From positions 1 through 31,508 of IMG/VR virus record IMGVR_UViG_3300032086_004246: a stretch of 31,508 nucleotides of DNA; one strand, written 5' to 3'. Source of the stretch: a virus. The notes below the pieces were generated by a model, which was not told the origin of the DNA, did no database searches, and saw only the letters and a program-made list of their open reading frames with translations. Both the position numbers and the translations under genes were made by a program. How positions within the stretch are numbered: the first letter of the stretch is position 1; each line of letters starts with the position of its first letter. Below are positions 2,114-31,030 of this stretch, piece by piece.

Positions 2114-2930
2114 CAATACTTTGCTTGTATTTACATTCAGGCATGTTGTATAGTAATTTATTAAGTTCATCAATATTAATATTACCTGCTTTGTAAGTTT
2201 CAAGTTCTACACTACCAATCATTTGATTAGTTCTATTTTGTATACTCTTTATATACATAGTAGCTTCAAACATTTGATCGGTATCACCAGTATCGAACCA
2301 AGCATACTCTGAATTGAGTATAGATAAACTTAAATCTCCAGACTCTAAATAACTTTTATTGAGATCTGTTATTTCTAGCTCTTTTCTACTAGAAGGGGTT
2401 AACTTTTTAGCTCTTTCAGGAGCAGAGCTGTCATAAAAATAAAGACCGGTTACTGCAACATCACTTTTAGGTTTTTCTGGTTTTTCAATTATGTTAGTAA
2501 TTTCTAAATCTTTATTATATTCTACTACCCCGTAATCTTGTGGATTACTAACTCTATAACCTACAATGGTAGCACCAGATACTCTATTATAATTGATACC
2601 TGTAAAAATATTATCTCCAAGAGCTAACACTACATCATCGTAACCTATAAACTTTTCACCTATAATAAGAGCTTCTGCTATACCTTTTGGTTGCTTTTGC
2701 TCCTTGTATGTAATATTGATACCTAGATTTGAACCATCCCCAAGTAAATCAAAAAAAGAATGTAGTTTATTAGATATAATTAATACATCTTTTATTCCTA
2801 GTTTAATAAGGGTAGATAGAGGGTAATATATGGTAGGCTTGTCGTAAACTGGCAGTATTTGCTTTGAAAGTACTCTTGTGTTAGGATAGACTCGAGTACC
2901 GCTACCTCCAGCTAGTATTATACCTTTCAT
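2088..2930 (-). CDS. rmlA: Glucose-1-phosphate thymidylyltransferase (dTDP-glucose synthase)
   Basis: Makes dTDP-glucose from dTTP and glucose 1-phosphate, the first step to dTDP-rhamnose and other dTDP-sugars. 280 residues against about 290 in bacterial RmlA. The nucleotide-binding loop is GGSGTR (8-13), followed by SKQILPVYDKP (22-32) with the conserved Lys, the QPKGIAEA segment (80-87), the metal-binding LGDN (104-107), YGVVEY, EKPEKPKS, TGLYFYD, LEITDLN and WFDTGD, all in family order. The catalytic core looks intact. It stands alone on the minus strand between a tube-like gene and the sheath; no rmlB, C or D is visible here. Its last 8 codons are antisense to the tube-like gene. It is probably a host-derived metabolic gene that feeds surface-sugar or glycosylation chemistry; that role is inferred. 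Confidence 0.95.
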   Translation of the reverse strand: MKGIILAGGSGTRVYPNTRVLSKQILPVYDKPTIYYPLSTLIKLGIKDVLIISNKLHSFFDLLGDGSNLGINITYKEQKQPKGIAEALIIGEKFIGYDDVVLALGDNIFTGINYNRVSGATIVGYRVSNPQDYGVVEYNKDLEITNIIEKPEKPKSDVAVTGLYFYDSSAPERAKKLTPSSRKELEITDLNKSYLESGDLSLSILNSEYAWFDTGDTDQMFEATMYIKSIQNRTNQMIGSVELETYKAGNINIDELNKLLYNMPECKYKQSIVKAVSLPF

Positions 2931-14311: not shown

Positions 14312-14794
14312 ATGACTGAAAATGTAAATTGGAATATCGTAGATGAACCTGCGATCAAAGTTAAGTTTTTGAAAACTCATGATGACGCTATTCTACCGAA
14401 AGTTAATAACAACGCATGGGCGACAGGAGACTCTGGTTACGATATTTTTAGTGTAGAGGATGTTGTTATTCCTGCTCGTAGCTCTGTAGTAGCACCCGTT
14501 GGTATTACAGTTGCTGATATTTCACCTGGTTATTGGTTTCGAATTGAACCTCGATCAGGTTTAGGCTTTAAGCATAATATTCAACCTCATCTTGGAGTTA
14601 TTGATAATCAATATCGTGGTGACCTAGGGGTTAAACTTTATAACTTTAGCGATACTGATGTAACTATTGAAAAAGGTAAAGCTGTTGCTCAGTTTGTTGT
14701 CTACCCTCTCTTGCAAGTTGCAGTTGATTGGTCGGATGAAGTAACTGAGACTAATCGTGGTGCTAAGGGCTTTGGTTCATCTGATAGTAAGTAA
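14312..14794 (+). CDS. dut: dUTP pyrophosphatase
   Basis: Hydrolyses dUTP to dUMP and PPi, keeping uracil out of phage DNA and feeding dTMP synthesis. 160 residues, trimeric dUTPase family with all five motifs: I SGYDIF (41-46), II PRSGLG (80-85), III GVIDNQYRGDL (95-105, with the catalytic Asp98 and Tyr101), IV KGKAVAQFVV (121-130) and V RGAKGFGSS (149-157). An N-terminal extension of about 20 residues precedes the barrel. T4 itself uses a different enzyme (gp56 dCTPase/dUTPase), so this is a functional replacement. No late-type element lies upstream. The next gene starts 3 nt after its stop, suggesting an early or middle bicistronic unit. Confidence 0.97.
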   Translation: MTENVNWNIVDEPAIKVKFLKTHDDAILPKVNNNAWATGDSGYDIFSVEDVVIPARSSVVAPVGITVADISPGYWFRIEPRSGLGFKHNIQPHLGVIDNQYRGDLGVKLYNFSDTDVTIEKGKAVAQFVVYPLLQVAVDWSDEVTETNRGAKGFGSSDSK

Positions 14795-14797
14795 GTT

Positions 14798-15721
14798 ATG
14801 GAAATTACCGACATCTGGGTAGAGAAGTATAGACCAACGAAATTAGAAGATGTAGTTCTTTCTGATGACGCGCGTGGTTATTTTAACAATGTTAAACAAA
14901 CTGGTAATCTACCTAACTTGTTACTTGTTGGATCCCCAGGTGTCGGTAAAACTACTTTAGCGAAGGTCATAATTAGCGATATTCTGAATGCACAATATCT
15001 TTATATTAATGCATCAGATGAGAACGGTATTGATACAATCCGTACTAAAGTACTAAACTTCGCTCAAACGCAAAGTATTTTTGGTACTACTAAGGTTATT
15101 ATTCTTGATGAGTGTGATGGTCTTAGCCTTGATGCTCAAAAAGCTTTACGTAATAGTATGGAAGAATATCATGATATTGCTAGATTTGTTCTTACTGCAA
15201 ATTATCAGCATAAAATAATTCCTGCTCTTCAGTCTAGATGTCATGTATTCCAGTTTGCTCCTCCTAAACAAGAGTACGTAAAGAGAGTCTTACATATAGT
15301 AAAAGAAGAGAAAGTAGACATTGAGCAGCCATACCTGTCAGAGTTGATTAGTAAGTCATATCCTGATTTGCGTAAGTGTATCAATAGTATTCAAAAATAT
15401 ACTATTTCAGGTAAGCAAGTTAACGTGGTTAGCACTGCGGAGAACGTTATAGACTCATGTCTCTCCATAGTTAAAGGTAACAACCTATACAAGGCACGTA
15501 AGCATATTATCGAAAATGAGAGTGCGTTTAGCAATGATTATGATACCCTATTTAAAGTACTGTTTGATAAGCTATATGCTAATAAGCTAGGGTTATCAGA
15601 ACAAAAAAACAGAGACTGCATGATTACAGTCTCTGAATACTTTTATAGAAATAATATTGTTATTGATAAAGAGATTAACTTCTTTACTTGTTTGATTGAA
15701 TTATCAAGACAAATACTTTGA
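14798..15721 (+). CDS. gp44: Clamp-loader ATPase, T4 gp44 type
   Basis: AAA+ ATPase that loads the sliding clamp (gp45) on primer-template DNA. 307 residues; T4 gp44 has 319. It begins with the RFC-box WVEKYRPTKLEDVV (7-20), Walker A GSPGVGKT (45-52), Walker B VIILDECD (100-107), sensor 1 LTANY (132-136, Asn135) and the SRC motif (146-148) carrying the trans-acting arginine finger. It follows dut by 3 nt. In T4 the small loader subunit gp62 follows gp44 directly; here the next gene is an unrelated minus-strand one that overlaps the gp44 end by 18 nt. Confidence 0.95.
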   Translation: MEITDIWVEKYRPTKLEDVVLSDDARGYFNNVKQTGNLPNLLLVGSPGVGKTTLAKVIISDILNAQYLYINASDENGIDTIRTKVLNFAQTQSIFGTTKVIILDECDGLSLDAQKALRNSMEEYHDIARFVLTANYQHKIIPALQSRCHVFQFAPPKQEYVKRVLHIVKEEKVDIEQPYLSELISKSYPDLRKCINSIQKYTISGKQVNVVSTAENVIDSCLSIVKGNNLYKARKHIIENESAFSNDYDTLFKVLFDKLYANKLGLSEQKNRDCMITVSEYFYRNNIVIDKEINFFTCLIELSRQIL

Positions 15722-16216
15722 AGTATAGCTTTCACTCTCTGTAGCTAGCTTATAATCTCCACCTTCAATCTTGTTACTATTACCTACATCAACCTGAGCG
15801 TCTTCTACAGGCTCGGGTTTGTGGGTCAATTTTTCTTCTTTCTCGTTAGTTTTATCAGATCTGGTACCTCTATGTACATCTCCTTTTTCATCGAATTCAA
15901 CCAATTCGATTGGGATAGTTAGAGCATTACTATAAAAACCAGGAGCTTCTTCTACTGTAATATCAGCAATAAACTCTTTAGCTCCTAATGAATTAGTTTC
16001 GTACTGAGTAGACTTGATAGCACTAAATAAAATAAATTTACCCGCTTCTTGTAAAGCAATAATATTATCTACATAGCCCTGTCTGGCCTCGTCTAGGTTT
16101 TTATACCAGTCGGAGCTTTTTACATTAGAACGGATTTTAACATAATCTCCGGGAATTGCGCTTGTTTTTTCAAAGCGTTGGTATACCTCTTCGTATATTT
16201 CGTTAAATTTTCCCAT
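15704..16216 (-). CDS. Uncharacterised late protein with disordered acidic C-terminus
   Basis: 170 residues. The N-terminal part (EIYEEVYQRFEKTSAIPGDYVKIRSN) and a strand-rich middle (KFILFSAIKS, KEFIADITVEEAPGF, LTIPIELVEFD) suggest a small alpha/beta or barrel domain of about 110 residues, followed by a polar, probably disordered tail rich in Glu, Lys, Ser and Thr. No catalytic motif is seen. The start is supported by a CATAAATA element ending 6 nt before the ATG. The gene is alone on the minus strand, back to back with gp25, and overlaps gp44 by 18 nt at its 3' end. I do not recognise the family; a minor virion or assembly protein is possible. Confidence 0.4.
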   Translation of the reverse strand: MGKFNEIYEEVYQRFEKTSAIPGDYVKIRSNVKSSDWYKNLDEARQGYVDNIIALQEAGKFILFSAIKSTQYETNSLGAKEFIADITVEEAPGFYSNALTIPIELVEFDEKGDVHRGTRSDKTNEKEEKLTHKPEPVEDAQVDVGNSNKIEGGDYKLATESESYTSKYLS

Positions 16217-16222
16217 TTTAAT

Positions 16223-16230
16223 TATTTATG
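16223..16230 (-). promoter_or_regulatory. Late promoter of the 170-residue gene, 6-nt spacing
   Basis: CATAAATA on the minus strand, then ATTAAA and the ATG at 16216. It forms a back-to-back pair with the element at 16245-16252. Confidence 0.65.
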
Positions 16231-16244
16231 CTTTTTGTTTTATT

Positions 16245-16252
16245 ATTAAATA
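16245..16252 (+). promoter_or_regulatory. Late promoter of the wedge operon, 6-nt spacing
   Basis: ATTAAATA ends 6 nt (ATTAAT) before the gp25 ATG at 16259. It is the same variant and spacing as the tape-measure promoter at 8337-8344. Only 14 bp separate it from the opposing promoter. Confidence 0.6.
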
Positions 16253-16258
16253 ATTAAT

Positions 16259-16744
16259 ATGGCTATAAATTTAGATTTTTTATCTGATCAGTCTTCGAAA
16301 GTAGGTGATACATCCTATGTGTACGCTGATCTACATCTTGATTTTAAGTTACAAAATAAATTATCTACAGATTATTTAAACGATACAGGTAGATCAAATA
16401 AAGATGTCAAAATCGATTATGATTTAAGAGCTATAGTTAATTCAATTTCAAACATATTCAATACCAAGCAAGGAGAAAAAATACTCAACCCTGCATTTGG
16501 TTTAGATCTAAGACAATATTTATTTGAACCCATATCAGAAGAGACTGCTCAAGAAATAGGTAATGATATTCTAGAACAGGTTCCCTTGTATGAGCCTAGA
16601 GTAATACTAAATTCAGTAGATATAATTGCGAGAGAGAATTATAACGAATATATTATAACTATCAGTATTACCATTCCTGAATTAAATAATTCAACAACCG
16701 AATTAAACGGTACATTAACATCTAACGGATTTACATACAATTAA
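16259..16744 (+). CDS. gp25: Baseplate wedge subunit, T4 gp25
   Basis: 161 residues (T4 gp25 132). GPW/gp25 family: GEKILNPAFGLDLRQYLFEP (about 72-91), then the invariant EPR triad (112-114) within VPLYEPRVILNSV, followed by two strands. In contractile tails gp25 forms the wedge core with gp6 and gp53 and starts sheath polymerisation by donating a strand to the first sheath ring. An N-terminal extension of about 30 residues precedes the core. It is the first gene of the wedge operon, and gp6 follows 2 nt after its stop. Confidence 0.92.
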   Translation: MAINLDFLSDQSSKVGDTSYVYADLHLDFKLQNKLSTDYLNDTGRSNKDVKIDYDLRAIVNSISNIFNTKQGEKILNPAFGLDLRQYLFEPISEETAQEIGNDILEQVPLYEPRVILNSVDIIARENYNEYIITISITIPELNNSTTELNGTLTSNGFTYN

Positions 16745-16746
16745 TT

Positions 16747-18573
16747 ATGCCAGAAGAAATAACACAATTTGATTTACCAAAAAACAGTTACGCTGCTTTT
16801 GATGCGCAGAGTATGCGAGATCTTATAATTGATAGGCTTAATAACAACAGCGCGACAACATTTACAGATCAAAACTACGAGGGTAGTAATCTTAATGCTA
16901 TAATAGATGTAATTGCTTACTCTTTTCATACTCTACTTTTTTACTTAAACCAAACTAGTTCAGAAAGTATGTTCTCAGATTCTCAATTATACGAGAATAT
17001 GAATAGAATAGTAAAACTAATAGATTATAAACCAATTGGTAGACAGTCTAGTATTGTTCCTATGATTCTTAAGAGTACAGAAAGTTTGTCTACAGGTTAT
17101 TTTACTCTACCTAAATTCTCATTTGTTACTTCGAATGGTATTACATACTCAACCACTAAAGATATAACTTTTAGAAAAGTAAATTCAGGAGCGATAGAAA
17201 CATTAACTCCGATAGATAATACTTTATTTTTTGAAGGTAAGTATAAAGAATATCCTTTAATACCTTCAGTAGGAGAGAATTTCGAAACTGTTAATTTACT
17301 TCCTGGCGCAGAAGCAATAGTAGATCATTTTAGTATAAAAGTTTATGTAAAAGAAAGAATTACTAACAAATGGTTTGAGTACGAAAGAGTACCTTCTCTT
17401 TACTTAAAAAATTCTAATGATAGAGCATTTGAATGTAGATTTAATCATAATAAAAATTATGAAATTAAGTTCGGTAATAATGTAAACGGTCGTAGATTGG
17501 TACAAAACGAACAAATCGCTATATATTATATTTCCTCTTCCGGTACTGAAGGTCAGATTACTAAAAATAATTTTTCAGGCTCTACAATCAATATATATAA
17601 TACAACTAACTATAATCAGATATTTGCGGATACAAAAGACACTACGTTATCTTATGTGACAATAGAAGATAGTGTTAATATAAATGTTACTAATGAAGAA
17701 GCAAGTACCGATTATAGTGAGGAAGAATCAGTTGAAGAAATAAGATCCAACGCTCCTAAGTTTTTCAGTTCTGAATATAAACTTATAACTAAGGATGATT
17801 ATAAAAACTTTGTTGTAAGAAATTATAGTAATTTTGTTTATGATGTAGTGGCTTCCAATAATTCAGACTATGTAGATATTTTTCAACAATACTTATTTGA
17901 AGATCTAGGGCTGAATAGTTATCATGATTATACAAACGCGTTATATAATCAGTTTCAATACGCTGATAGCTTTAATGTTAATAATTTATATTTAACTATA
18001 GTACCTAAGTTTAAGAAGAGTAATTCTATAGTAAAGAGATCTAATTACTTAACCCCAGCCTTAAAGAATGAGATTTTATTTGAATTAAGAAAATATAAAC
18101 TACTAAACGGAGAAGTTTGTTTCCTTGATCCTGTATATCTAGCAGTTGATATAGCAGTGAAGAATGCTAACGAACCGAATAAAGTTGAATACAAAGATAA
18201 TTCTAGTTTGGTTATACTAAGAAATAATAATACCATCTCTAATGATGATACAATAAAAAACAAAGTAGTAAAAATATTACAAGATTATTTTTCTAATTCT
18301 ACTCTAGGGCAAATAATAGATATGCAAAAGTTAAATTCTGATATTTTAAGTATACCCGGGGTAGATGGATTTTATACAGTTAGAGATAATGTACGTAAAG
18401 ATAGTTTGAGTCTCAGCTTATATAATCCAATATATAATGGCAGAGATGTTAAATTAATAGATTCTAACTTAAAACTTAAATATTTTCAAATACCTTATAT
18501 AGAGGATATAGAACAAATAAAAAATAAAATTACAGTAACACCTATTACTAAATCTAAATCTGTTGAATATTAA
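16747..18573 (+). CDS. gp6: Baseplate wedge protein, T4 gp6 (gpJ-like)
   Basis: 608 residues (T4 gp6 is 660). The N-terminal domain is strongly conserved: FTDQNYEGSNLNAIIDVIAY (39-58), then LLFYLNQTSSESMFSDSQLY (63-82) and ENMNRIVKLIDYKP. The middle has the gpJ-type strands, including FGNNVNGRRLVQNEQIAIYY. The C-terminal dimerisation region includes SIPGVDGFYTVRDN. gp6 dimers make the inner ring that holds the wedges together. Gene order gp25-gp6 is a common contractile-tail pairing. It ends in TAATG with the next gene. Confidence 0.94.
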   Translation: MPEEITQFDLPKNSYAAFDAQSMRDLIIDRLNNNSATTFTDQNYEGSNLNAIIDVIAYSFHTLLFYLNQTSSESMFSDSQLYENMNRIVKLIDYKPIGRQSSIVPMILKSTESLSTGYFTLPKFSFVTSNGITYSTTKDITFRKVNSGAIETLTPIDNTLFFEGKYKEYPLIPSVGENFETVNLLPGAEAIVDHFSIKVYVKERITNKWFEYERVPSLYLKNSNDRAFECRFNHNKNYEIKFGNNVNGRRLVQNEQIAIYYISSSGTEGQITKNNFSGSTINIYNTTNYNQIFADTKDTTLSYVTIEDSVNINVTNEEASTDYSEEESVEEIRSNAPKFFSSEYKLITKDDYKNFVVRNYSNFVYDVVASNNSDYVDIFQQYLFEDLGLNSYHDYTNALYNQFQYADSFNVNNLYLTIVPKFKKSNSIVKRSNYLTPALKNEILFELRKYKLLNGEVCFLDPVYLAVDIAVKNANEPNKVEYKDNSSLVILRNNNTISNDDTIKNKVVKILQDYFSNSTLGQIIDMQKLNSDILSIPGVDGFYTVRDNVRKDSLSLSLYNPIYNGRDVKLIDSNLKLKYFQIPYIEDIEQIKNKITVTPITKSKSVEY

Positions 18574-20747
18574 TGGCAATTAATAATTACATATCTTCTG
18601 AAAGTATAAGGAAACTATCTGCTCCAATAACAGTAACTCCTAATATGTCGGGTTATACTAGGATTTCTGAATTTACTTTTACCGTTGAAGCAACTGGTTC
18701 GTTTGCTACATATTTTCCCTCAGACTTAAGCCAGGTTAAGGTAGTTTGGGACTTTGGAGATGGTTATACTCTAAGCGCTGATACACCCTACCAAAGTACG
18801 CATATATATGATCACCCTGGTCAGTATACAGTTAATTTACATATGTATGACTCAAGTGGGGAAACATATTTAAATACCCTAACTGAAACAGTAAGTGTTT
18901 TTAATTATAAAAAAACTAGAGTTACCTTAGCTAATGGAATTTCTTCAAAGCAAATTAAAGCAGGAGTATTTGATATTAACTCTGGTAATTCTACGAATAA
19001 AGTAGAGGTTGCAATTCAAACTACCTGGCAAGATTATAACCCAACTGGCAATACAGTTTACTTTACCTCGAGTGGTAGTAACAGTAAACCATATGATGTT
19101 AACTACAAATACTCCCATTTACTACCCTATTGGTCATTTTATAATAGGATAGGTTCGAAAGTTGTAAGAGATAATAAAACCATAGCGTTATTAGAGCCAC
19201 AATATTATGTACTAGACTCAAATAATACACCGGTTTTGACTTCCGCAGAAGCATCTGGTGCAAAGTTATTATGGGCTCAAGGTAAAGCGGATATTTATTA
19301 TTTTGATGATAGTCCTGGAGAAGTTAATTTAGTTGCAGCGCTGGATACTTCAAATCATAAATTACCTGACTTCTATGTTAATCAAATTGAGACAGATATA
19401 AACTTATCAAAGTTAAATTTCATGGAAAGTAACGTTGGTTTGTTAAACATAAGATGCAATAAGGTAGAGCCAACAAAATTAATACTTACTAGTACCGGTC
19501 ATAGAGATATGCCTTTACCGGGCTTAAAACGTTTAGAAAAACCTTTTCAAATATTCTTTGCAGCCGGTGATGATAATAATAATATTTTTAAATATTACCC
19601 TGAATTTTATTTAAGTGCTTCGGGGTTTGATGATAACGATTCTAATACATTTAAGGCAGAAATGATAGGTCTGACCGGAGATCCAGCAAACAGATCTGGT
19701 TACAACTTAACATCAAATATAAGTAGTGTAAGTACTAATAAATACCCGTACAATACTTCTTTGAGTAGTACTTATTTGAGTTCTTTTGGGTACATAAATG
19801 TTACTCCGGTTTTATCAGGTCAAACTACTACAGTAGTAAGAGTTAGTGCAAGGCCGACTTTAGTTAACGGTTTAACATCTAGTCCTCTTACAGGGGAGTA
19901 TGCTTTTAGAGTAGAGAGCATTCAAGGTCCAGTTGAATATAAATTAGGAGAAGACTTTGATATGTCTGAAACCATAGCTAGTTATAGGTTTCAAGAGTTC
20001 ATGCATGACTACGGGACTTTATTTAGACAGTTAATAGGTAACATAACCGGTAATGTTACAAGTGATCCTAATACATACGGTAAACAGATCTACGAGAAGA
20101 TACAAAACTTTAATAACAATATAAATGACATAGATTTATGTAATTTAGATGTACTGAAAAAATTCTATAAAATTTTTGATGACGATCCTAACTTTACTAT
20201 TACCACTGCTCCACCGAAAGTAAAAAGATTATTTGATACATATACTATACAATATAAAAAATTATTTGGAGATTTTGAAAAGTTTGGAGAAAATTTCGAT
20301 ACTCAATTTTCGAGTAATTCTACTTTAGGAGTAAACATTGATTTTGATAATCCTATCACAACTACTTCATATACTGTAACTGCTGGTACTAATTTCGTAG
20401 CAAGACAAAAATTTGGTAACAAATATATTTTGATAGAGCCTATGAACGTACCTACATCAACTATAGAGGCTGGTGCTACTACAAGTCAATATCCTTTGAG
20501 TAATTATAATATGTGCGCTAATTCCACATGGGGATGGCCATTGGATTCGACAGCTAATGGTTCTGATTTGGATACGATATATGATTTTTTTCCGTATGTT
20601 ACAAATTACACTAACACGAAGGAAAATAATGTTATAGATGACACAAACGCATTGAACGAAATTAGAGATGTTGCAAGTCTGTCAGCAAATCAACAAAATT
20701 TTTATTTATCAGTTGATAAAAGATTAAGAGAGGGTTTAACTAAATGA
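18573..20747 (+). CDS. Baseplate/virion protein with N-terminal PKD domain
   Basis: 724 residues. A PKD (Ig-like) domain is clear at about 33-112: VVWDFGDG (57-64), a spacer, then HIYDHPGQYTVNLHMYD (77-93). The rest is strand-rich, with Ser/Thr/Asn-rich stretches. A helical segment then follows (ETIASYRFQEFMHDYGTLFRQL, and the acidic ICDLDVL-like stretch around 540), and a final strand-rich part with TWGWPLD. It sits directly after gp6, the place of gp7 in T4, and is co-translated (TAATG), so a wedge or peripheral baseplate role is likely. The PKD domain may bind host surface sugar or act as a spacer. No similarity to gp7 was seen by eye. Confidence 0.6.
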   Translation: MAINNYISSESIRKLSAPITVTPNMSGYTRISEFTFTVEATGSFATYFPSDLSQVKVVWDFGDGYTLSADTPYQSTHIYDHPGQYTVNLHMYDSSGETYLNTLTETVSVFNYKKTRVTLANGISSKQIKAGVFDINSGNSTNKVEVAIQTTWQDYNPTGNTVYFTSSGSNSKPYDVNYKYSHLLPYWSFYNRIGSKVVRDNKTIALLEPQYYVLDSNNTPVLTSAEASGAKLLWAQGKADIYYFDDSPGEVNLVAALDTSNHKLPDFYVNQIETDINLSKLNFMESNVGLLNIRCNKVEPTKLILTSTGHRDMPLPGLKRLEKPFQIFFAAGDDNNNIFKYYPEFYLSASGFDDNDSNTFKAEMIGLTGDPANRSGYNLTSNISSVSTNKYPYNTSLSSTYLSSFGYINVTPVLSGQTTTVVRVSARPTLVNGLTSSPLTGEYAFRVESIQGPVEYKLGEDFDMSETIASYRFQEFMHDYGTLFRQLIGNITGNVTSDPNTYGKQIYEKIQNFNNNINDIDLCNLDVLKKFYKIFDDDPNFTITTAPPKVKRLFDTYTIQYKKLFGDFEKFGENFDTQFSSNSTLGVNIDFDNPITTTSYTVTAGTNFVARQKFGNKYILIEPMNVPTSTIEAGATTSQYPLSNYNMCANSTWGWPLDSTANGSDLDTIYDFFPYVTNYTNTKENNVIDDTNALNEIRDVASLSANQQNFYLSVDKRLREGLTK

Positions 20748-22924
20748 TAAACTTAGATACAATAAAACCATATACTTTTAAACAGTACAAAGATTATTAT
20801 AGAGATTTAAATAATCCCAATGAAATAATTGAAGAATATAACTCTTATCTAGTTGACTGGAAGAAATTTAAAACACAAAAGCAAGTAACTGATAATAATT
20901 ATACGTTTGAAATTTACAAAGACTTTCTAAAAAACATAAATCTAGATAATTTATCGACTGATATACAAAATTTTATTAATCAATTGGATTATGATGACCC
21001 GTATGAAGTTGACTTAGCTGTACATTATTTTAGTGAAAGTATAACTAGAGAGTTTAATAGATTAAAAGATTACAGAGAAGAGCTTAGATTTAATGTACCT
21101 AAAAATAATTTAAAAAGCTCAAAGCTTGGTATAGAAAAATATCTCAAAGCTCATTTATTAAGACTCGTTTTACAACCAGATTTTTACGCTAATATAGGTA
21201 CTAAAAAAGTAAAAATAAATAAATCTAAGTTAAGTAGCAGATTAAAAATATTCTTCAATAGATATGCAACTAAATCTCCTAATTTAATAGATTCTGATTT
21301 AGCCCCTTATTATGATAATAAAGTTGATTTAAAAAAGAGTGTTAAGGAATTATCTAAAAATACAATACAAGCGTTACAAATCAACTCAAAAAATAAAAAA
21401 TATCTACAAACATCTAAAAAGGTTAAATTAGTAATTAATAAAACCTATACTGATTGGGAGAAACTACCGGAAAGGTATTTTGCCGGAGAAAATAAAAAGT
21501 TAGAAAATTTAAACATAAACCTTTTTTCAGGTTTGAAAGAAAAATACTTAAGTACTGACTTATTTCTATTATCAGGAACGAATGAAAACTATACCTTAAA
21601 TAAAATTTTTGAAGCAGATAAACCCTTTTCAAATTTGTATAGGTACTACAATCCAGTCGTAGCAAAGGATTACGGTACAAAGATAAGAGAAGATCTCTTA
21701 CCATTTCAACTTAGTTATAATAATGCAGGTCTAGCTATAGCGTTGTCAAAAAACTTAACCTATAATGTTAATTTATCAGCTTTAAGCGGAGAGTTTGTTG
21801 TTCCAGACCCATCTAGAATTCAATCAGGGATAGGCTTAGGAATTTCTAGTGTAAAAAGATCAGTACCTATAAACTATAACGCAGATAATAGTTGGATAAA
21901 AAATAATGAAAATGTAAGCATTAATGTTAATGATAACTCGGCTTTAAAAGGCACTGGTTATCAATCTAAAGAAAACAGTTTACAGTATACTCCTAACGGT
22001 ATAAATAAGGTAACTGATGAAATAAGTTTTTGGGAAGGAGATGGTCAAATTGTATGGAAGAACAAAGACGTATATGAAAGATATAGCTTAAATTTATATC
22101 CTGAGACAGAAAGATTTAATGATTTATTAATTCTTAACTCAACCAATACTCAGGTGAGAAGCGATGTTTATGGTAATGAATTTATTCTTTTAAAAGATAC
22201 CAGACCTAAAAGAAAAGCATCAAGCCAAAGCTCGTCATCTAGTTCAGGTAGTAGTAATGAAACATGTGAAAGTTACGATGCATTATACTTTGATGGTTTG
22301 TTGAGCGCTATATCCGCAGCTGATCCAACTACGTTTACTAGCCTTACATCTATATATGATACAGTCCTTTTCAATGATAACTCTGGATGTGAAGCTACGT
22401 TTGATTCAACAGCAGTAAGCATTTCATCCTTTTTCGCCCCTTTGAGTACTTCTTCATGTGATGTTATATCAGGAGATGACTTAGTCGATGGTGGTCCGTT
22501 TGCTAATCACCCTTGTAGATCAAATGAATTTATAGGTAACGAGTTTTCTAAATTTAATATACCATATTATAATAATACCGCAGTATCACCGTATAATACA
22601 GTTTATATTAGCAATGCTACAGACGAACCATCTACATCGGCTGTACCTCTGTATAACGAAAATTATACAACACCGGGTAAAGTTTACATACGAGATATTA
22701 CCTCTCAAAAAGTTTACACTTTATACGAAAGAATGAGCGGAGTATTCGCGAAATTACCTACAGCTGCGCAGAGCGGGATTTCTGCAGATGAAATTTTAAA
22801 TATGGATATTATAGGTAATACTATATTTATTCAATTATCAAGTTCCACTTTTACAGAAAAATATAACTATGATGAAACTGGATTCACTATAGCAGCACCA
22901 TCAATATCAATTATTAATAAATAA
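20744..22924 (+). CDS. Large uncharacterised distal-tail protein
   Basis: 726 residues, co-translated with the PKD gene (ATGA overlap). The first 220 residues are helical, Lys/Asp/Asn-rich (YRDLNNPNEIIEEYNSYLVDW). The middle (about 300-490) is strand-rich. A Ser-rich linker lies at about 491-505, where several Ser codons follow KRKASSQ. After it comes a Cys-containing domain (about 508-590) with four spaced cysteines (ETCESY, SGCEAT, SSCDVI, HPCRSN). The C-terminal 130 residues are strand-rich. The long order helix, strands, linker, Cys domain suggests an adaptor or fibre-base protein. I do not recognise the family, and no enzyme motif is visible. Confidence 0.45.
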   Translation: MINLDTIKPYTFKQYKDYYRDLNNPNEIIEEYNSYLVDWKKFKTQKQVTDNNYTFEIYKDFLKNINLDNLSTDIQNFINQLDYDDPYEVDLAVHYFSESITREFNRLKDYREELRFNVPKNNLKSSKLGIEKYLKAHLLRLVLQPDFYANIGTKKVKINKSKLSSRLKIFFNRYATKSPNLIDSDLAPYYDNKVDLKKSVKELSKNTIQALQINSKNKKYLQTSKKVKLVINKTYTDWEKLPERYFAGENKKLENLNINLFSGLKEKYLSTDLFLLSGTNENYTLNKIFEADKPFSNLYRYYNPVVAKDYGTKIREDLLPFQLSYNNAGLAIALSKNLTYNVNLSALSGEFVVPDPSRIQSGIGLGISSVKRSVPINYNADNSWIKNNENVSINVNDNSALKGTGYQSKENSLQYTPNGINKVTDEISFWEGDGQIVWKNKDVYERYSLNLYPETERFNDLLILNSTNTQVRSDVYGNEFILLKDTRPKRKASSQSSSSSSGSSNETCESYDALYFDGLLSAISAADPTTFTSLTSIYDTVLFNDNSGCEATFDSTAVSISSFFAPLSTSSCDVISGDDLVDGGPFANHPCRSNEFIGNEFSKFNIPYYNNTAVSPYNTVYISNATDEPSTSAVPLYNENYTTPGKVYIRDITSQKVYTLYERMSGVFAKLPTAAQSGISADEILNMDIIGNTIFIQLSSSTFTEKYNYDETGFTIAAPSISIINK

Positions 22925-22932
22925 ATTTAAAG

Positions 22933-24666
22933 ATGTTTGAAAGTAAACAATCAGATTATTGGTTTATAGAAAGTACAAATGATTTATTAGTTTGTACTGT
23001 TACATCTGTATCTGCAGATGGACTTAAACCATGTAAGGGAGATTTAATCTCTATATTTCCTTTAATACATAAAATTGATAGAAAGACTAATAAAAAAGAC
23101 TTTTTATACCCACCATCATCAGCAGTTTCATCTATATCTGCTGACATGAGTCTGACTCTTTCAGCTTTAAGTACAGAAAAGTTTTTCTACTCCACAGTTG
23201 CTCAGACTAGCGCAGATATAGAAATAGGTGAAATAACAAAACCCATAATCACTTTCAATAATAAAACAGATCTCTACAATATATCTTTTCTAGGTAAATA
23301 CAATGATAATAACGTATCCATTTTTACATACAATTTTAAATACCTAGACAATCAAATGGAGCTTCTTGGTGCTCATGCAATAGTACCAGAAGAGAAAAAT
23401 TATACATATAAGTATACATTTGAGGATGGATATTTGCATCCGGACTATGTAATTAAAGGTAATGATACAACTGGCTTTGATAGTAGCTTTGGTATTTATT
23501 TTGGCATACAACAAGATGAGGTACCGCCTAATTATCAATTCAAACCTTTTCATTTTGAAAATTATTTAAAATTTGCTGCAAGTCCATATGCTACTACTGT
23601 AACAGAAGTAACTGGTAACGCAACTTTACCATTGACATGGGCTGGTGGTTTCATTACTCAAAAGAGATCTGCCCCGGCGTTGAATACAGAAGAAATTATA
23701 AGGATAGATCTCACCTGCAAAAGTTACAGCTTAACTAATCAGAATTTACTCAACCATGATATTTATAATGACTCAGCTCCATATTATAGAAAAGTAAATA
23801 CCGGTACTTCCCCTGGTCCTGGATCTGGTTTTTGTATATTCTTATATGAGCCTACTTCAGAGACAGTAGATGTTGGTATTGGTACCACGAGTGTAGAAAT
23901 ACAGGGGCTAAGTTCATTTGAAGTTTTAGAAGATCCGGATATTAGAGAATTAAGCTTAAACGGCTATGGTCCATCAATGGGATACGCACCAGCTTCAGCT
24001 ACTAAACTCGAGCCTAGTAGTTTAATATATAGGTTAGCAGGAATTAAAGCTAAAGGATTTATTGGAATTTGTTTCGATATAGAAGGATCTTTTGGAGATA
24101 GTAGTTATGGGTTACCACCGAGTTACGATGGTTCGACGTTAACTCAAGTCGCGAGCTCGATTGCGATAAGAGGTGGTTTTGAGAATGATTACAAACTATT
24201 AGATAAAACGGCAACCCTCAACCCAGCTACGTTTAAAATGCACGATGATGTAGCCACAAGAGCGGATGCGCCAGATAAAGATATAAGAATTGAAATATCT
24301 AATAGAGGAACGAAATTAAAAATATTTGGTAAGGAAAATTCAAATACATATTCATTATTACATGAAGTTAATTTAGCTAATTATTTTCAAAGTATACCTA
24401 AATTTTTAAAGGCAGGCCTATCATTTAACACTTCAGAAAAATCTTCTAATTTTGAATTGAAAAAATTTAAAGTATCTGGCACTAATACTCAAACACCATT
24501 CCAGCCTAAAATAATAACAAGTAATAATAATGAAAGTTTTATTGAATCTCAATATGGCTTGGAGACTACTGGAAGTGTAAACGTAGGAGGAACATCAGAA
24601 ACAGAAAATACATGTACATGTGATATTTGTAATACTACAACATCTTACAGTTGTTGTGAATGCTAA
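22933..24666 (+). CDS. Virion adhesin with L-type-lectin-like domain and Cys-rich tail
   Basis: 577 residues. From about 285 the pattern resembles legume-type (ConA-like) lectins: PGPGSGFCIFLYEP, LSLNGYGPSMGYAP, GFIGICFDIEGSFGD, a central IRIEISNRGTKLKIFG and a closing FLKAGLSFNTSEKSSNFELKKFKVSG. This is the order 'G-x-G-F strand, G-x-G-Y/A loop, V-x-F-D strand, I/V-x-I-x-Y, G-F-S-A-x-T'. The likely role is glycan binding on the host envelope. The last 17 residues carry six Cys (561, 563, 566, 574, 575, 577). Start ATG at 22933, 8 nt after the preceding stop; AATAAATA lies at 22916-22923, 9 nt before the ATG, and may or may not be a promoter. The lectin call is by pattern. Confidence 0.5.
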   Translation: MFESKQSDYWFIESTNDLLVCTVTSVSADGLKPCKGDLISIFPLIHKIDRKTNKKDFLYPPSSAVSSISADMSLTLSALSTEKFFYSTVAQTSADIEIGEITKPIITFNNKTDLYNISFLGKYNDNNVSIFTYNFKYLDNQMELLGAHAIVPEEKNYTYKYTFEDGYLHPDYVIKGNDTTGFDSSFGIYFGIQQDEVPPNYQFKPFHFENYLKFAASPYATTVTEVTGNATLPLTWAGGFITQKRSAPALNTEEIIRIDLTCKSYSLTNQNLLNHDIYNDSAPYYRKVNTGTSPGPGSGFCIFLYEPTSETVDVGIGTTSVEIQGLSSFEVLEDPDIRELSLNGYGPSMGYAPASATKLEPSSLIYRLAGIKAKGFIGICFDIEGSFGDSSYGLPPSYDGSTLTQVASSIAIRGGFENDYKLLDKTATLNPATFKMHDDVATRADAPDKDIRIEISNRGTKLKIFGKENSNTYSLLHEVNLANYFQSIPKFLKAGLSFNTSEKSSNFELKKFKVSGTNTQTPFQPKIITSNNNESFIESQYGLETTGSVNVGGTSETENTCTCDICNTTTSYSCCEC

Positions 24667-24672
24667 TGTAAA

Positions 24673-25707
24673 ATGAGATCATATACCCATACAATAAATA
24701 ACACTCAAGCCCAGACTAGTTCATCGACAACGTCTGAAACTGTAAACGTATCTGGTACGAACATTTTTACGTTTGCCTTGAGTGGTTTAGATCAACAATA
24801 TTCTGGTATAAATAAAGTTTATGTGAATTACCCTGACGTTACTTCAGATGTTATATATAGAAGTCTGACAACTTCAGATGTATCATCTATAAGTTCAAAT
24901 AGTTTTGAAAAAATAATTGAAAGCGAGCCTTTATCAGCTGTAGATAAACCTATAACTTTCACTATGCTAAGGGATGACGGTATTGAAGATATACATACTG
25001 TAACTGTTTCAATTACTTCTGCTACCTTAGACACTTATACAGATATAAATTTAATAAAAACCGATTTAGTCACTAATGATAGTTTAAATAATAATTTATT
25101 GTTAACCTTTAATACAGATGATTTTGGGATAACAGGTTTAAATAATATAGAATTAGATACCATAAGTAATGAAGTTTTGAATGTTGGTTTCAATCCCGAG
25201 ATAATTAGTAATGTTTTTGAATCTATTTCAGCTGAAATATCATTTAATTATAGTACTATTTTTTATAATTCAGATAGACCAGCAAAAGCCTTAGCTATAA
25301 GGTCAGGTAACAACAGCGAGTTAGTGAAAATAAAATTTAGAACTCGAGTACCCTCAGTGACTGCAGTCACAGAGTATCAAGGAGGTTCAGCTGTATATGC
25401 ACCTGCAATACCTAACACTACATTTTTTCACACTTCAGGATTTTTAGTATGGCATCCTAATAGTCTCGAGCAGGTAAAAAGTATAAGCATACCTATCATA
25501 GACCCTTTAGGCACTAAAGTACTGTCCGCAGAAACATCTTATGGTATGGAGTATGATATCGATAATATAAGATTGTACCATTATTTTGATGATACAACAG
25601 TATCATTATCTGGTAGCTACTTTTTTATTGATTTGTTTGATATTGATGCGTGTGATACATTAATATGTAGTTCTTGTAGCACTTTAACAGCATACATAAA
25701 CTATTAG
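24673..25707 (+). CDS. Uncharacterised strand-rich virion protein with C-terminal Cys motif
   Basis: 344 residues, rich in Ser, Thr, Asp and Ile, almost all predicted strand; no long helix, no signal peptide. The N-terminus is low-complexity Thr/Ser (QAQTSSSTTSETVNVSG). The body looks like repeated Ig- or beta-sandwich strands, for example VSISSNSFEKII-type stretches. The C-terminal 20 residues hold C327, C332 and C335 (CX4CX2C), echoing the Cys tail of the preceding protein. It starts 6 nt after that gene's stop and is followed after 17 nt by the fibre operon promoter. It is likely a fibre or baseplate appendage component. Family not recognised. Confidence 0.42.
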   Translation: MRSYTHTINNTQAQTSSSTTSETVNVSGTNIFTFALSGLDQQYSGINKVYVNYPDVTSDVIYRSLTTSDVSSISSNSFEKIIESEPLSAVDKPITFTMLRDDGIEDIHTVTVSITSATLDTYTDINLIKTDLVTNDSLNNNLLLTFNTDDFGITGLNNIELDTISNEVLNVGFNPEIISNVFESISAEISFNYSTIFYNSDRPAKALAIRSGNNSELVKIKFRTRVPSVTAVTEYQGGSAVYAPAIPNTTFFHTSGFLVWHPNSLEQVKSISIPIIDPLGTKVLSAETSYGMEYDIDNIRLYHYFDDTTVSLSGSYFFIDLFDIDACDTLICSSCSTLTAYINY

Positions 25708-25711
25708 TAAG

Positions 25712-25719
25712 GATAAATA
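25712..25719 (+). promoter_or_regulatory. Late promoter of the fibre genes, 5-nt spacing
   Basis: GATAAATA ends 5 nt (ATTAT) before the ATG at 25725. It sits just after the upstream stop codon (25705-25707), inside a same-strand gene run, so the fibre pair can be transcribed separately as a leaderless message. Confidence 0.7.
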
Positions 25720-25724
25720 ATTAT

Positions 25725-26531
25725 ATGGCTTTGGAAGACGAAATTATTAATATACAAGACTTAGATATAGCTAAAGAAATAAAAATTGGTGACTTTGTAT
25801 TACTTGAAACAACTGATGGCACAAAGCTTATTGACTTTAAAGACTTTATCATAGGTACTGATAATATTACATTCTTTGATAAAATCTCAGGTGGAGACTA
25901 TCTCCAAACAACAGATATATCAGGTTTATCTGCTGATGTAAGTAATCATAAAACAATATTAACAGATTTAAGTGGAGTGGATGCGAGAGTTGATTCGGTG
26001 GAAGCTGCAATTAATAATCTCGCAAGTGATTTATCTAAGTTTGTGTCTCAAATAAATAGTACTTCAGAAGTCACATTAGCAACGTACACTACTTCAAAAG
26101 CTGGGTTTAGAGTTTCTGTTAAAAATCCTGTAGACATATACACTCCAAAAAGGTTGCATTTGTCTACTTTAGAGTTTAAAGGATCGGAATTAACTGAAGA
26201 TACTCATATAGTTAAAGGTACCCCTACCACCAATTTTAGTTATACTGCTATAGGTAGCTATACTTTACTACTAATAGGTAGTTTTACGTTAACTGGAACA
26301 AGAAGAGCAGCTGGTGGTGGTAATTATCTAAGTACTGTGGGATTAAAAATTTACAAAAACGATCAATTAATTTTTCAGCAAACAGCCGATGCTAGCAGGA
26401 ATTCAGGTGGTTCTGGTACTATCAGTTTTGTAGAATCAGTAAATTTAGTTGAAGGTGATAAAATTACAATAATAAGAGATTCGGGTACTAAATCTATTGT
26501 TCGTGCTAATGTTTCAGGTACCATATCGTAA
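25725..26531 (+). CDS. Short tail fibre-like trimeric protein
   Basis: 268 residues. The N-terminal 90 are strand-rich, with a compact globular look (IKIGDFVLLETTDGTKLIDF). A heptad-repeat stem follows at about 84-110 (DLSGVDARVDSVEAAINNLA SDLSKF region), with hydrophobic a/d positions. The C-terminal 150 residues are a beta-sandwich with the C1q/TNF-like pattern (SYTAIGSYTLLLIGSFTL, GLKIYKNDQLIFQQTAD, VESVNLVEGDKITIIRDSG). Such 'globule, coiled coil, jelly-roll tip' proteins are typical trimeric receptor-binding or fibre-tip proteins. It overlaps the giant fibre gene by one base (TAATG), so the two are made together. The fold call is pattern-based. Confidence 0.55.
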   Translation: MALEDEIINIQDLDIAKEIKIGDFVLLETTDGTKLIDFKDFIIGTDNITFFDKISGGDYLQTTDISGLSADVSNHKTILTDLSGVDARVDSVEAAINNLASDLSKFVSQINSTSEVTLATYTTSKAGFRVSVKNPVDIYTPKRLHLSTLEFKGSELTEDTHIVKGTPTTNFSYTAIGSYTLLLIGSFTLTGTRRAAGGGNYLSTVGLKIYKNDQLIFQQTADASRNSGGSGTISFVESVNLVEGDKITIIRDSGTKSIVRANVSGTIS

Positions 26532-29500
26532 TGAAGATACATACCTTTGATAATAACATCGTTAAACCTATAAAGCTTACACACCAAGCTGATAATAAAC
26601 TATTGTTCAAAGGTTTTAGAGAGAACTACAATTTTGGATTATCTCTTAATTCATATAATATTAACGAAGGGTTGAGAGATAGAAAAAGTAATTATAATAC
26701 TTCATACTTTTTATCGGACTTAAAATCATTGAGTTCAGTAGTTGAGTTAGACGTACCTTATTCATTTTTTGCTGATAGTAAGTTTACTACATATATAAAA
26801 AACGGAGACAATTACGCAAAAGCCGAAAACGCTACTAGTTCTATTACTTATGATACAAACTTCGATACTTTTCAAGAAAAATATTTTTTCACTTTTAATT
26901 TAAGTACTAATCAATATCTTTATATAACTAAAGAAATAGATGATAATACTTATTTTGCTTTTGCTTCTGCTGAGACTTTATTTTTATCAGCGTCGGCGCC
27001 ACCTAACGAAGCTCATTTATTTAAGTATACTATACATGATAGTAAAATAAAACTCATACCAGCGTATGATCTTGATGATAATTCAAAAATACGACAATTA
27101 ATTTTTAATAGCAATACAGTTTCTGCTACAGAAGCATCTACTGATCCTACTAATACAAGTTCTGTGTTTGAAATAAAAAGAAACACTATAACCAATAATA
27201 AGAAAAATTTAAATAATACTTTTAGTTTATATTTGTCAAGTTATAACAAAGACGATGTAAATTTAAATTTATCTACCACTGTTGATCAAGTAAGTAATAA
27301 CTTTTTATTATTTGGTAATAATTATAGTTTATCTCAAACCAATGAGAGTTTATCTGTAGATTTACTACCTTTAAAAAACCAAGCAACTTTAGAAGAATTT
27401 TTTGTACCAGTAAATCATTATAATTCCCAACCTAGTAACTTAAACAGAGTTTATGAGAAAATATATTCAGGTAACAACCAGGAAACTGGTTATGATAAAT
27501 TATATCTGAGTTATAATATAGGTACTAAAGATGTTAAATTTGAACCTTCTAAATTAACATACTTTACTACCCCGTCAAGTTTAGCGCCATATACAAGAGT
27601 TAATGTTAATGACTCCAAGCTCGAAACATTAGGAGCAATAGCTAGTAACAATCCGTTAATGGCAGATAAAATTTTCAAAAGAAGAGAGAAAATAAAAAAT
27701 AATTATTTTACTGATGAAACTGTCAACGCTACATACTTATGTTCTTGGTTATCAGGTAATGAAGAAGATGAAAAAATTTGGGTTGATAGATTCTATAATC
27801 CTGATTATTTGAATTTTAATACAGCTCTAAGAGGTACATCATTTTTTGATACAGTAACATCCGTAGGAGCAAGTGCTAGTTATATTTTTGATCTTAAATC
27901 TAAATTAACATTTGAACCTAATAATGATTATGCTTTTTATCATATAGGTGAAAGAGATTATGAGCAGCATTTGATTTCATTGGAAAAATATTCTTTATCA
28001 AATGATATTGAAATATTAACATCTAAGGGTGCGCCAGCAGATATAACAACTGTAAAAAGAGATACAGAAATTAACTTTGACGGTGACAAGTTCGCTAGGT
28101 TTATAACTGACAAAAAAGGAGACTTTAGTTTCTCGTTTTGGCTCAGCGCGCAAGATTATTCCAAACCTTTGGGTTATCAGTTACTCGGTAATTACTTTGA
28201 AGAAGGTTTTGGTATATTTAATACTGATTTAGTTACCCCTAATATATACTTACCTCACGATAATAAATTATTATTAATTAATAACGATTTTGAAGTATAT
28301 GATGAAATTGAATTATTAGAAGGTAACAACCCAGTAAATATCAAAGCAGTTGCTCGTAAAGATAATTTCAGCGAATTTTACTTACTAGGGGAAAATAATG
28401 TTATATACATTTATAATAGTAATCCGAATTTGGTAAGTAAGGTTACTGATTTATCTGGTGTTTCGAATTTAGTTATAGATGATATAGAACTAACAGAAGA
28501 TAGAATATATCTATCTTTTAACCCTCTCAACGGACCCAGAGAAAAAATATTTTTCTACGATACGAAAAATAATCAAACATTTTTCCAACAATCCGTCAGC
28601 GCTAATACGTATGGTAAAAGAGGTAAGATTCACTCTACTTTAGACGATGGGTTATCTTTCTTTGAAGCAGATGCTAATATTAATACAGGTAATGAAATGG
28701 ATGTTGATAGTCAGGGTAATAAATTTACCATCAAACAAAAATATCCGTTACAACAAGCAATAGAAACCAATTTAATATACAAAAATAGTTTCATAAACAA
28801 TAGTACAAATACTATTGAATTAACTGGTGGACAAAATAACACTACAGCAACAAACTTGATAATTGATGATGAAGATTTTCTTTATATAATTTATGATCAA
28901 AATAAAATTGCTAAATTAAAAAACACGAGAGAGTTAGTAGATTACACTACTTTAAATTTCCTAGATAAGACTTCCAAAAAATATATAGATTTAATATACG
29001 ACTTCGAAGGTAAAGAATATAAAAAATATATTCTAATAGTAGAGAAATTATCTGATCGTACCCTAATTCATAAGCTAAATTTTAATTTCACTTTAGTTAA
29101 AACTAAAAGCCTAGGTTCTATAAATCTTAATAACTTAAATTTAACTAAATCTGTAACAAGTTATAACTTTCTTAAAAAACTTAATGCAAACAAAAATAGA
29201 TTTAAAGTAGTACTAAAAACCAAACCCGCATTTACCTCGACAGGTGCTTTTGATAAATTAAAATCTGTTATCGATTATGATATAACTCAACTAGAGAACG
29301 GATATAATCATTTTGCAGTTAATGTTAGTACTAAGACTGGTTTCATGGAGCTATATGTTAATGGAATTAAGTTTCAAAGAGTTCACTTCGCTCCAGGTAA
29401 ATACAGCCTAGATAATCCTCTAGGTTCAGGAATTTTCGTTGGAGCTTTAAGTACACCCTATAATCTAACCCTAGCTAGTAGATTACTACAAAAAGGTAAA

Positions 29501-31030
29501 TACCTTCTTAGAGATATTAAGATAAAGGGATTCAAGATGTATAATCGGCCTATCGATTATTTTGAGATAAAATCTCATATAAACTACCATACCGTAAATA
29601 AAGATACTGTGTGGTCCCTACCAGTTGGTCAGAGAGTTTATACAGATACTATAGATAGAGTATTCAAATTTACAGTCCCAGAAAAGGTTACTAATACATA
29701 TGATGTTGAGATTAGAAACTTAGGTATTGAAGATTTAGACTTATTAAACAAAATAGAAGATGAGATTAGAAGCGAAGTTCCTAAGGTCACTCCTTATTTT
29801 GATAAATTGAGAGAAATAATTTTAACAACTTCTATAACTCCAGAGCCTGATGCAGTTATTGAAAAGATTGTATCAAAAGCAACTATACTACTTAACCCAG
29901 GAGAGTGTCTAATAAAATACATAAACGGTAGAAGAACTATTTTCTTTGAACCAGGTGATTATGAAGTAGAAAAAGATGACATAGTAATCAAGATACCAGA
30001 TATACCTTTATTAGGTGGTGGTAACCCTGTTAACATTTTAAGAGAGATTCCAGAACCAGAGCCGGAAGATATACCTTTATTAGGTAGTGGTAATCCTATT
30101 GATGTTTTAAGAGAGCTTCCTCCGACTTCAAAACTCGTGCCAATGCCAGGGGTTATTATAACCGACTGCTGTACATGCAGATGTAGAAGAAAACCTATAG
30201 TAGGAGTATGCCGAGGTGGTTGCTGCGGCGGAGGCGGTGGAGGTGGCGGCAGTCAAGGTGGACCACCTCATGGCGACCCAATTTGGGGTGGCGGTGGTGG
30301 TGGAGGCGGAACGCTTCTCAACAGCGGCGGTGGCGGTGGAGAAAGCGAAATCACCCTGGTTGAAGATCCGGTTTTAGTTAGCTCAGATGTAGAGATTTAT
30401 GGGTCATGGGGTGGTCTTTTTGGACAAAACCCTGGACCGGGAGCAAAATATCGTTATACAGATGACGGAGTCCTTATAACTGTTAACGATGTACCTGTAG
30501 TTAACGATGGTAGTACAGGGTCAGTATATAGCGAAGTAAAAATAAGAACTAATTGTTTTGGCACTCCAGATGGAAAAACTGTAATATGTTCTCGCTCTGG
30601 TAAGCACTCTCCAGGTCAAAAAATTGAATACGAAAGGTTAGTTCAAGGATCAAAAGAAATACCGTTAACTCATATAGCTACAATATCGTTAAAACACGAA
30701 CCAGATGTAACCTTTGATGCCGCAAGTACGAGAATAACAGATTATTTGCAAAATACTTTGAACTATAACAGTAATGATATCGTTTTACTTGACACCATTG
30801 GTATACTACATGCAGGAAGAGGAGCAGTATCGGGATTTAGTATAAACTTTACAACATTAAAAGGTATATGGACTACACAGTATAATTATGCAAACTTTAT
30901 TGGTGATGTTGATTTAGCAGCTGGTACATCAGGTATTAAAACATGGGAATACACATCAACTGGTCAAGGAGTAAATTTCACTGGTGGTAATACTCAAATG
31001 TTTGGTCAGATCTGCGTGCTAATATCGTAA
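26531..31030 (+). CDS. Giant tail-fibre/adhesin with LamG-like parts and Cys/Gly-rich hinge
   Basis: 1499 residues, the largest protein here. Strand-rich N-terminal 500 residues. At about 513-560 the start of a LamG/ConA-like sandwich (DFSFSFWLSAQDY). At about 920-1025 its typical end (GYNHFAVNVS, GFMELYVNGIKF, IKIKGFKMYNRPIDYFEI). Between them lie about 350 residues with repeated four-strand-like units (KLLLINNDFEVYDEIELL, FLYIIYDQNKIAKLKN), perhaps a propeller. Then two copies of an IPLLGxGNP unit (about 1157-1197), a Cys cluster (1213, 1214, 1216, 1218, 1227, 1231, 1232), a Gly-rich hinge (about 1229-1271) and a unique C-terminal domain of about 225 residues. Likely the host-recognition fibre. 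Translation is coupled to the preceding gene. Its stop abuts the stop of the convergent gene with no gap. Confidence 0.6.
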   Translation: MKIHTFDNNIVKPIKLTHQADNKLLFKGFRENYNFGLSLNSYNINEGLRDRKSNYNTSYFLSDLKSLSSVVELDVPYSFFADSKFTTYIKNGDNYAKAENATSSITYDTNFDTFQEKYFFTFNLSTNQYLYITKEIDDNTYFAFASAETLFLSASAPPNEAHLFKYTIHDSKIKLIPAYDLDDNSKIRQLIFNSNTVSATEASTDPTNTSSVFEIKRNTITNNKKNLNNTFSLYLSSYNKDDVNLNLSTTVDQVSNNFLLFGNNYSLSQTNESLSVDLLPLKNQATLEEFFVPVNHYNSQPSNLNRVYEKIYSGNNQETGYDKLYLSYNIGTKDVKFEPSKLTYFTTPSSLAPYTRVNVNDSKLETLGAIASNNPLMADKIFKRREKIKNNYFTDETVNATYLCSWLSGNEEDEKIWVDRFYNPDYLNFNTALRGTSFFDTVTSVGASASYIFDLKSKLTFEPNNDYAFYHIGERDYEQHLISLEKYSLSNDIEILTSKGAPADITTVKRDTEINFDGDKFARFITDKKGDFSFSFWLSAQDYSKPLGYQLLGNYFEEGFGIFNTDLVTPNIYLPHDNKLLLINNDFEVYDEIELLEGNNPVNIKAVARKDNFSEFYLLGENNVIYIYNSNPNLVSKVTDLSGVSNLVIDDIELTEDRIYLSFNPLNGPREKIFFYDTKNNQTFFQQSVSANTYGKRGKIHSTLDDGLSFFEADANINTGNEMDVDSQGNKFTIKQKYPLQQAIETNLIYKNSFINNSTNTIELTGGQNNTTATNLIIDDEDFLYIIYDQNKIAKLKNTRELVDYTTLNFLDKTSKKYIDLIYDFEGKEYKKYILIVEKLSDRTLIHKLNFNFTLVKTKSLGSINLNNLNLTKSVTSYNFLKKLNANKNRFKVVLKTKPAFTSTGAFDKLKSVIDYDITQLENGYNHFAVNVSTKTGFMELYVNGIKFQRVHFAPGKYSLDNPLGSGIFVGALSTPYNLTLASRLLQKGKYLLRDIKIKGFKMYNRPIDYFEIKSHINYHTVNKDTVWSLPVGQRVYTDTIDRVFKFTVPEKVTNTYDVEIRNLGIEDLDLLNKIEDEIRSEVPKVTPYFDKLREIILTTSITPEPDAVIEKIVSKATILLNPGECLIKYINGRRTIFFEPGDYEVEKDDIVIKIPDIPLLGGGNPVNILREIPEPEPEDIPLLGSGNPIDVLRELPPTSKLVPMPGVIITDCCTCRCRRKPIVGVCRGGCCGGGGGGGGSQGGPPHGDPIWGGGGGGGGTLLNSGGGGGESEITLVEDPVLVSSDVEIYGSWGGLFGQNPGPGAKYRYTDDGVLITVNDVPVVNDGSTGSVYSEVKIRTNCFGTPDGKTVICSRSGKHSPGQKIEYERLVQGSKEIPLTHIATISLKHEPDVTFDAASTRITDYLQNTLNYNSNDIVLLDTIGILHAGRGAVSGFSINFTTLKGIWTTQYNYANFIGDVDLAAGTSGIKTWEYTSTGQGVNFTGGNTQMFGQICVLIS
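29999..30120 (+). repeat. Imperfect tandem repeat in the giant fibre gene
   Basis: Two 53-nt copies (29999-30051 and 30068-30120), period 69 nt, each coding IPLLG-G/S-GNP-x-x-x-LRE-I/L-P. The first is followed by a Pro/Glu-rich spacer (EPEPED). The copies differ mostly at silent or conservative positions, which indicates duplication followed by selection. They lie just before the Cys/Gly-rich hinge. Confidence 0.85.
30161..30345 (+). other. G+C-rich Cys/Gly-rich coding segment (fibre hinge)
   Basis: Codes seven cysteines in 20 residues (1213-1232), followed by runs of up to eight glycines separated by short Gln/Gly/Pro/His and Leu/Asn/Ser spacers. The DNA is rich in GGC/GGT/GGA repeats, in sharp contrast to the A+T-rich flanks. 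Confidence 0.85.

Follow-up and report, generated by a model that had tools for sequence, protein, structure and literature searches.

Why do neighbouring virion proteins of an uncultured phage carry dense clusters of cysteines at or near their C-termini, and do these clusters belong to one common attachment site? The question is raised by IMG/VR record IMGVR_UViG_3300032086_004246, of which positions 1 to 31,508 were analysed (31,508 nt, hereafter the window). The window is AT-rich (26-35% GC in 2-kb steps), contains genes matching PHROGs families for terminase, tube, sheath, gp6-like wedge and clamp loader, and is on its sequence a stretch of a T4-like phage, one far from anything cultured, with best terminase matches that are only ~35% identical. 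The genes of interest, all on the plus strand, are anchored by two T4-like baseplate genes, a gp25-like gene (16259-16744), which we take to be such from its synteny and size, and a gp6-like baseplate wedge gene (16747-18573; PHROG 219, E=1.7e-39). These are followed by a gene for a 724-aa PKD-domain protein with three scattered Cys (18573..20747; Pfam PKD_4, E=4e-9) and then by five genes that we call A (starting at 20744), B (22933), C (24673), D (25725) and E (26531). Elsewhere in the window, a dUTPase-like gene and the clamp-loader gene are found inside the baseplate gene cluster (14312-15721), and a nucleotidyltransferase gene (2088-2930, minus strand; Pfam NTP_transferase, E=5e-56), the start of which resembles glucose-1-phosphate thymidylyltransferase, is flanked by the tube gene and the sheath gene and oriented opposite to them.

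Comparison of B, C, D and E with PHROGs and Pfam returned nothing significant, A, B and E had no match in 50,697 phage records (tblastn) and a search of genome contigs for relatives of B found none. Relatives came from IMG/VR, searched with A, B, C and E as queries, which yielded ~45 distinct uncultured phage contigs with A, in which B, C, D and E follow in the same order where the contig is long enough (D was not seen in L101). Three clades emerge from trees built with A and with the E core: G1 (the window, L002, L003, L004, L006 and L022), its sister G2 (L023, L024, L025/L027, L026 and L101) and an outer clade G3, with support of 99/98 for the branch dividing G1 from G2.

The clusters themselves are just as originally described, exact to the residue, in B and E. 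B (577 aa) has six Cys in its last 17 residues (positions 561, 563, 566, 574, 575 and 577, the latter being the C-terminal residue; CTCDICNTTTSYSCCEC, 24613-24663, last letter Cys), and E (1499 aa) has seven in the 20 residues 1213-1232 (positions 1213, 1214, 1216, 1218, 1227, 1231 and 1232; CCTCRCRRKPIVGVCRGGCC, 30167..30226), adjoining a Gly hinge. The CX4CX2C motif of C (344 aa, 24673..25707), formed by its sole Cys, C327, C332 and C335 (25651..25677), is also there, near the end of the protein rather than at the very end, since nine more residues follow. The accompanying statement that other structural proteins have few Cys holds at 0-0.9 per 100 residues (the sheath has 2 in 872 aa and the tube 0 in 188, while all window ORFs together are 0.6% Cys), except for a 242-aa ORF at 6327 with 1.65. 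In 25 window ORFs with 10,257 residues in total, 20,000 random shufflings of all 62 Cys never produced six Cys in 17 residues or seven in 20, and shuffling within each protein gave P values of 1e-5 for B, <1e-5 for E and 1.4e-3 for the C triplet. Among ~100 related loci, at least five Cys in 20 residues are confined to B and E of the clade that includes the window, and no comparable Cys clusters turned up in structural proteins in the stretches compared from the cyanophages S-MbCM100 and S-SM2 and the pelagiphage HTVC008M. The Cys clusters of B, C and E are thus real and not a product of chance.

The original prediction saw in these clusters, together with four spaced Cys in A, one attachment code shared by neighbouring proteins. 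A (726 aa, 20744..22924) is conserved in all clades, and its four Cys (508, 549, 572 and 591) do lie after a Ser linker as described, in a domain spanning residues 508-591 (22265..22516). C549 and C572 are found in almost every sequence, and the other two Cys occupy positions 508 and 591 in G1 and G2 and two other positions in G3, implying that this outer pair moved together. Both equivalents of the pair are lost together in L069, although L101 has lost only one of them. This pattern hints at a disulfide between residues 508 and 591 in a folded domain, readable from evolution. On this comparison, the four Cys of A are older than, and separate from, the clusters of B, C and E, and A was excluded from the set since its Cys are found in all clades and within a domain.

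B has two dissimilar parts. Its core (residues 1-518, 22933..24486) was predicted by AF2 with a pLDDT of 70-93 in most blocks (mean pLDDT 69), and Foldseek returned 156 PDB matches at E<=0.001, of which nearly all those listed are L-type lectins, among them those of legumes and of the ERGIC-53/VIP36 type (best E 2.4e-8). The TM-score is ~0.6 when normalized to the lectin, TMq is only ~0.3, indicating partial overlap, and identity in the structural alignments is 10-13%; a PDB profile search with B found nothing. The core is therefore predicted to adopt an L-type-lectin fold, i.e. a concanavalin-like β sandwich, in agreement with the earlier view of B as lectin-like. The rest (residues 519-577, 24487..24666) is a predicted disordered tail (pLDDT ~30) that is specific to G1. 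All five complete B proteins of this clade have such a Cys-rich tail, 48-96 residues long with 4-13% Cys and predicted to be disordered, and in all five the very last residue is Cys, even though the tails are otherwise barely alignable. The spacing of the Cys is different in every distinct G1 lineage, their number falls to three in L004 and His is absent from all tails. Nevertheless, between L002 and L003, where 11 of 13 Cys columns are common, dN/dS is ~0.18 in the tail (dN 0.05, dS 0.29) and 0.09 in the core, which shows that the tail is a translated protein segment under selection. In G2, B ends where the core ends. In G3 (L009-L062), it runs on for 350-600 residues, with ~1% Cys and no cluster. 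That G3 has one kind of extension, G1 another and G2 neither suggests that the C-terminus of the lectin is a replacement hot spot.

In C, for which only an N-terminal Ig/PKD-like domain is predicted with confidence and the Cys motif lies in the unresolved end of the model, all 29 sequences have the first Cys (C327). C332 and C335 are restricted to G1, where they are present in five of five proteins as CX4CX2C or CX4CXC, and are replaced elsewhere by Thr, Ser or other residues. The terminal Cys of B and the second and third Cys of C thus occur together in 5/5 G1, 0/5 G2 and none of the G3 contigs examined and, as the trees support both G1 and G2 as groups, one gain suffices to account for both. 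This shared-branch gain makes a partnership between B and C possible. Across the IMG/VR relatives, the Cys-rich B tail and the three-Cys motif of C are thus kept throughout G1 (5/5 each), while in G2 and G3 the B tail and the second and third Cys of C are absent. B with its lectin-like core, C and fibre E nevertheless persist in these two clades, and conserved adhesins without the clusters of B and C are just what the original prediction had named as refuting it. Of the neighbours supposed to co-assemble through Cys only B and C are still candidates, A and E having dropped out.

D (268 aa, 25725..26531), with a conserved N-terminus and a variable C-terminus, has no Cys and separates C from the giant fibre; in L023, a possible HNH-type ORF with zinc-ligand-like Cys (14676-15350), without a Pfam match at E<=0.01, is found between C and D. 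E consists of a core with a single Cys (residues 1-1100, 26531..29830), the end point of which is common to all homologues, a G1-specific segment with a Pro-rich linker (29831..30166) in which C1126 (codon 29906-29908) is conserved in 4/4 proteins, the Cys cluster, a Gly-rich hinge (residues 1233-1270, 30227..30340) and a distal tip domain (residues 1271-1499, 30341..31030). A search for relatives of the tip found only the window's own contig, and a PDB profile search with E found none. Most G1 and G2 members have a variable extension past the core, whereas the 55 other complete homologues (some of them near-duplicates, and including remote ones 24-32% identical) stop at or close to residue ~1099, with no more than one Cys past this point in any of them. 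Extensions are Cys-rich in six of the nine G1 and G2 proteins, with 2.7-7% Cys vs 0.1-0.5% in the core (Fisher P of 3e-6, a conservative value obtained with 45 others). These are the window, L022 and L101 (23 Cys each), L003 (HCCCQPTPGIC followed by poly-Gly), L023 (ending in FCNTTDPSKTLCNQIC) and L027 (ending in QTCCTCN); those of L004, L024 and L026 are not Cys-rich. Past residue 1165 the extensions can hardly be aligned, and in the window GC changes from 0.28 in the core to 0.57 in the cluster and hinge (30161-30270) and 0.40 in the tip, a pattern that would be expected if tips are exchanged. In L022 and L101, different tips are preceded by long Cys-repeat regions. Those of the L022 extension include CBM_14-like repeats that score above the Pfam cut-off, although these are half-domain repeats only, and CBM_14, a family held by disulfides, was not found in the window's E. 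In L101, the extension (16003-17982) has about four CC-centred repeats (ECCLKS, RCCLPD, PCCIKD and PCCMPG) without a family match. The recurrence of non-homologous Cys-rich versions at the same place suggests a function for which Cys are required and their exact spacing is not. The Cys of E come and go independently of those in B and C, as L023, L027 and L101 (G2) have a Cys-rich E extension and no B/C clusters and L004 (G1) shows the reverse, which rules out a code requiring all three proteins and, with it, one metal site common to B, C and E.

What, then, might the clusters do? Our preferred reading, to which we would give an even chance, is that they are lineage-specific Cys-rich C-terminal extensions on conserved adhesins, acting as post-lysis disulfide clasps. 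Gene order and fibre type suggest both the location of these proteins in the virion and a trimeric state. E, B and C would be made and assembled in the reducing cytoplasm, and after lysis, in oxygenated water, their Cys would oxidize to disulfides. The E cluster would close the three fibre chains just ahead of the flexible Gly hinge and tip, while the flexible tail of B might form a small disulfide knot, an inter-chain link or a link to the C-terminal Cys motif of its neighbour C, to which a pair of new Cys was added. The outcome would be sturdier, covalently held distal parts. A more specific version, which has the lectin adhesin B latched to C after lysis through the obligatory terminal Cys and CX4CX1-2C, with the giant fibre clasped separately before its hinge, as a redox-controlled attachment of receptor-binding proteins, is rather doubtful. 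Counting against clasps in general, E of L004 lacks a cluster and its B tail has only the three Cys mentioned above, and the joint gain in B and C is a single event. As the AF2 models do not resolve the B tail or the end of C, they reveal neither a pairing of Cys nor a preformed site.

Binding of a metal (Zn, Fe-S or Cu), either per chain or at the threefold axis of a trimer, could instead stabilize the tips or carry metal to the host, a reading that we consider unlikely. Metal-binding peptides typically carry motifs such as CXC, CC and CX2C, which are also present in the tails, and fibres of marine phages have been proposed to bind iron via HxH motifs (PMC11705849). However, the number and spacing of Cys vary freely in B and E, B tails have no His, and isolated Cys segments of B and E matched no metal-binding or metallothionein family in Pfam, even at E up to 10. 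Together with the adjacent CC pairs, the CBM_14-like repeats of L022 and the precedent of phage Milano (see below), this favours disulfides over metal and speaks against the single metal site initially envisaged. A metal site is thus less likely than a disulfide clasp; it is more conceivable for the regular motif of C, the short spacing of which is near-constant in G1, than for B, in which there is neither the conserved spacing nor the family profile match of a Cys-based site (Zn ribbon, metallothionein or Fe-S).

No joining of proteins at all would be involved if the clusters were small disulfide-rich binding modules, part of a receptor-binding repertoire turning over by recombination. The non-homologous E extensions, the uneven GC along E and the Cys-repeat regions that precede different tips in L022 and L101 would all fit, but since every G1 B tail ends exactly on Cys and the C motif is tightly conserved, a link fits better, and we regard such modules as improbable too. 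It is harder still to believe that these are functionless low-complexity tails at free C-termini, with Cys arising by drift or by slippage beside (GGN)n repeats. The E cluster does adjoin poly-Gly codons, and TGN and GGN are one base apart, but the B tail uses a mixture of TGT and TGC with no repeat around it, is under purifying selection and keeps its terminal Cys in all five G1 proteins despite A being only ~52% identical across this clade. Mixed codons and selection led us to reject a slippage artefact.

Linking phage appendages by Cys is not undescribed, as the original prediction had supposed. In Agrobacterium phage Milano, the baseplate holds both the tail spike and the short fibre through disulfides, and the chains of the trimeric spike are clasped by Cys24/Cys26 in a CXC motif (PMC10811340). 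The parallel would be with its contractile tail, with the Cys of its tail spike, short fibre and baseplate and with its disulfides, both the inter-chain clasp at CXC and the bonds between appendage and baseplate. However, in Milano Cys are spread across all tail proteins (2.1% of structural residues), which is not so here, as sheath and tube make clear, and its spike and fibre links are N-terminal, while here the Cys are concentrated at or near the C-termini of distal proteins. Metal-binding fibre tips, such as the HxH iron sites of T4 gp37 or the alterophage R22Y (PMC11705849), similarly present clustered potential ligands in distal fibres of aquatic phages, but the ligands here are Cys rather than HxH and form no regular repeat. 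The resemblance of B to legume lectins, ERGIC-53 and VIP36 is confined to the predicted fold of its core, the disordered Cys tail being outside that fold, and that to the CBM_14 (peritrophin-A) chitin-binding domain is confined to the extension of L022.

The comparison of clades makes it clear that the mere presence of Cys clusters in adjacent virion proteins is no evidence of a shared site. If the disulfide reading is true, uncultured T4-like phages would have evolved C-terminal covalent clasps on their adhesins, and the distal virion would mature only after release into oxygenated water. What was found in Milano would then apply to phages far removed from it too, and Cys count together with a terminal Cys would provide a simple rule, open to testing, for spotting such links in metagenomes.
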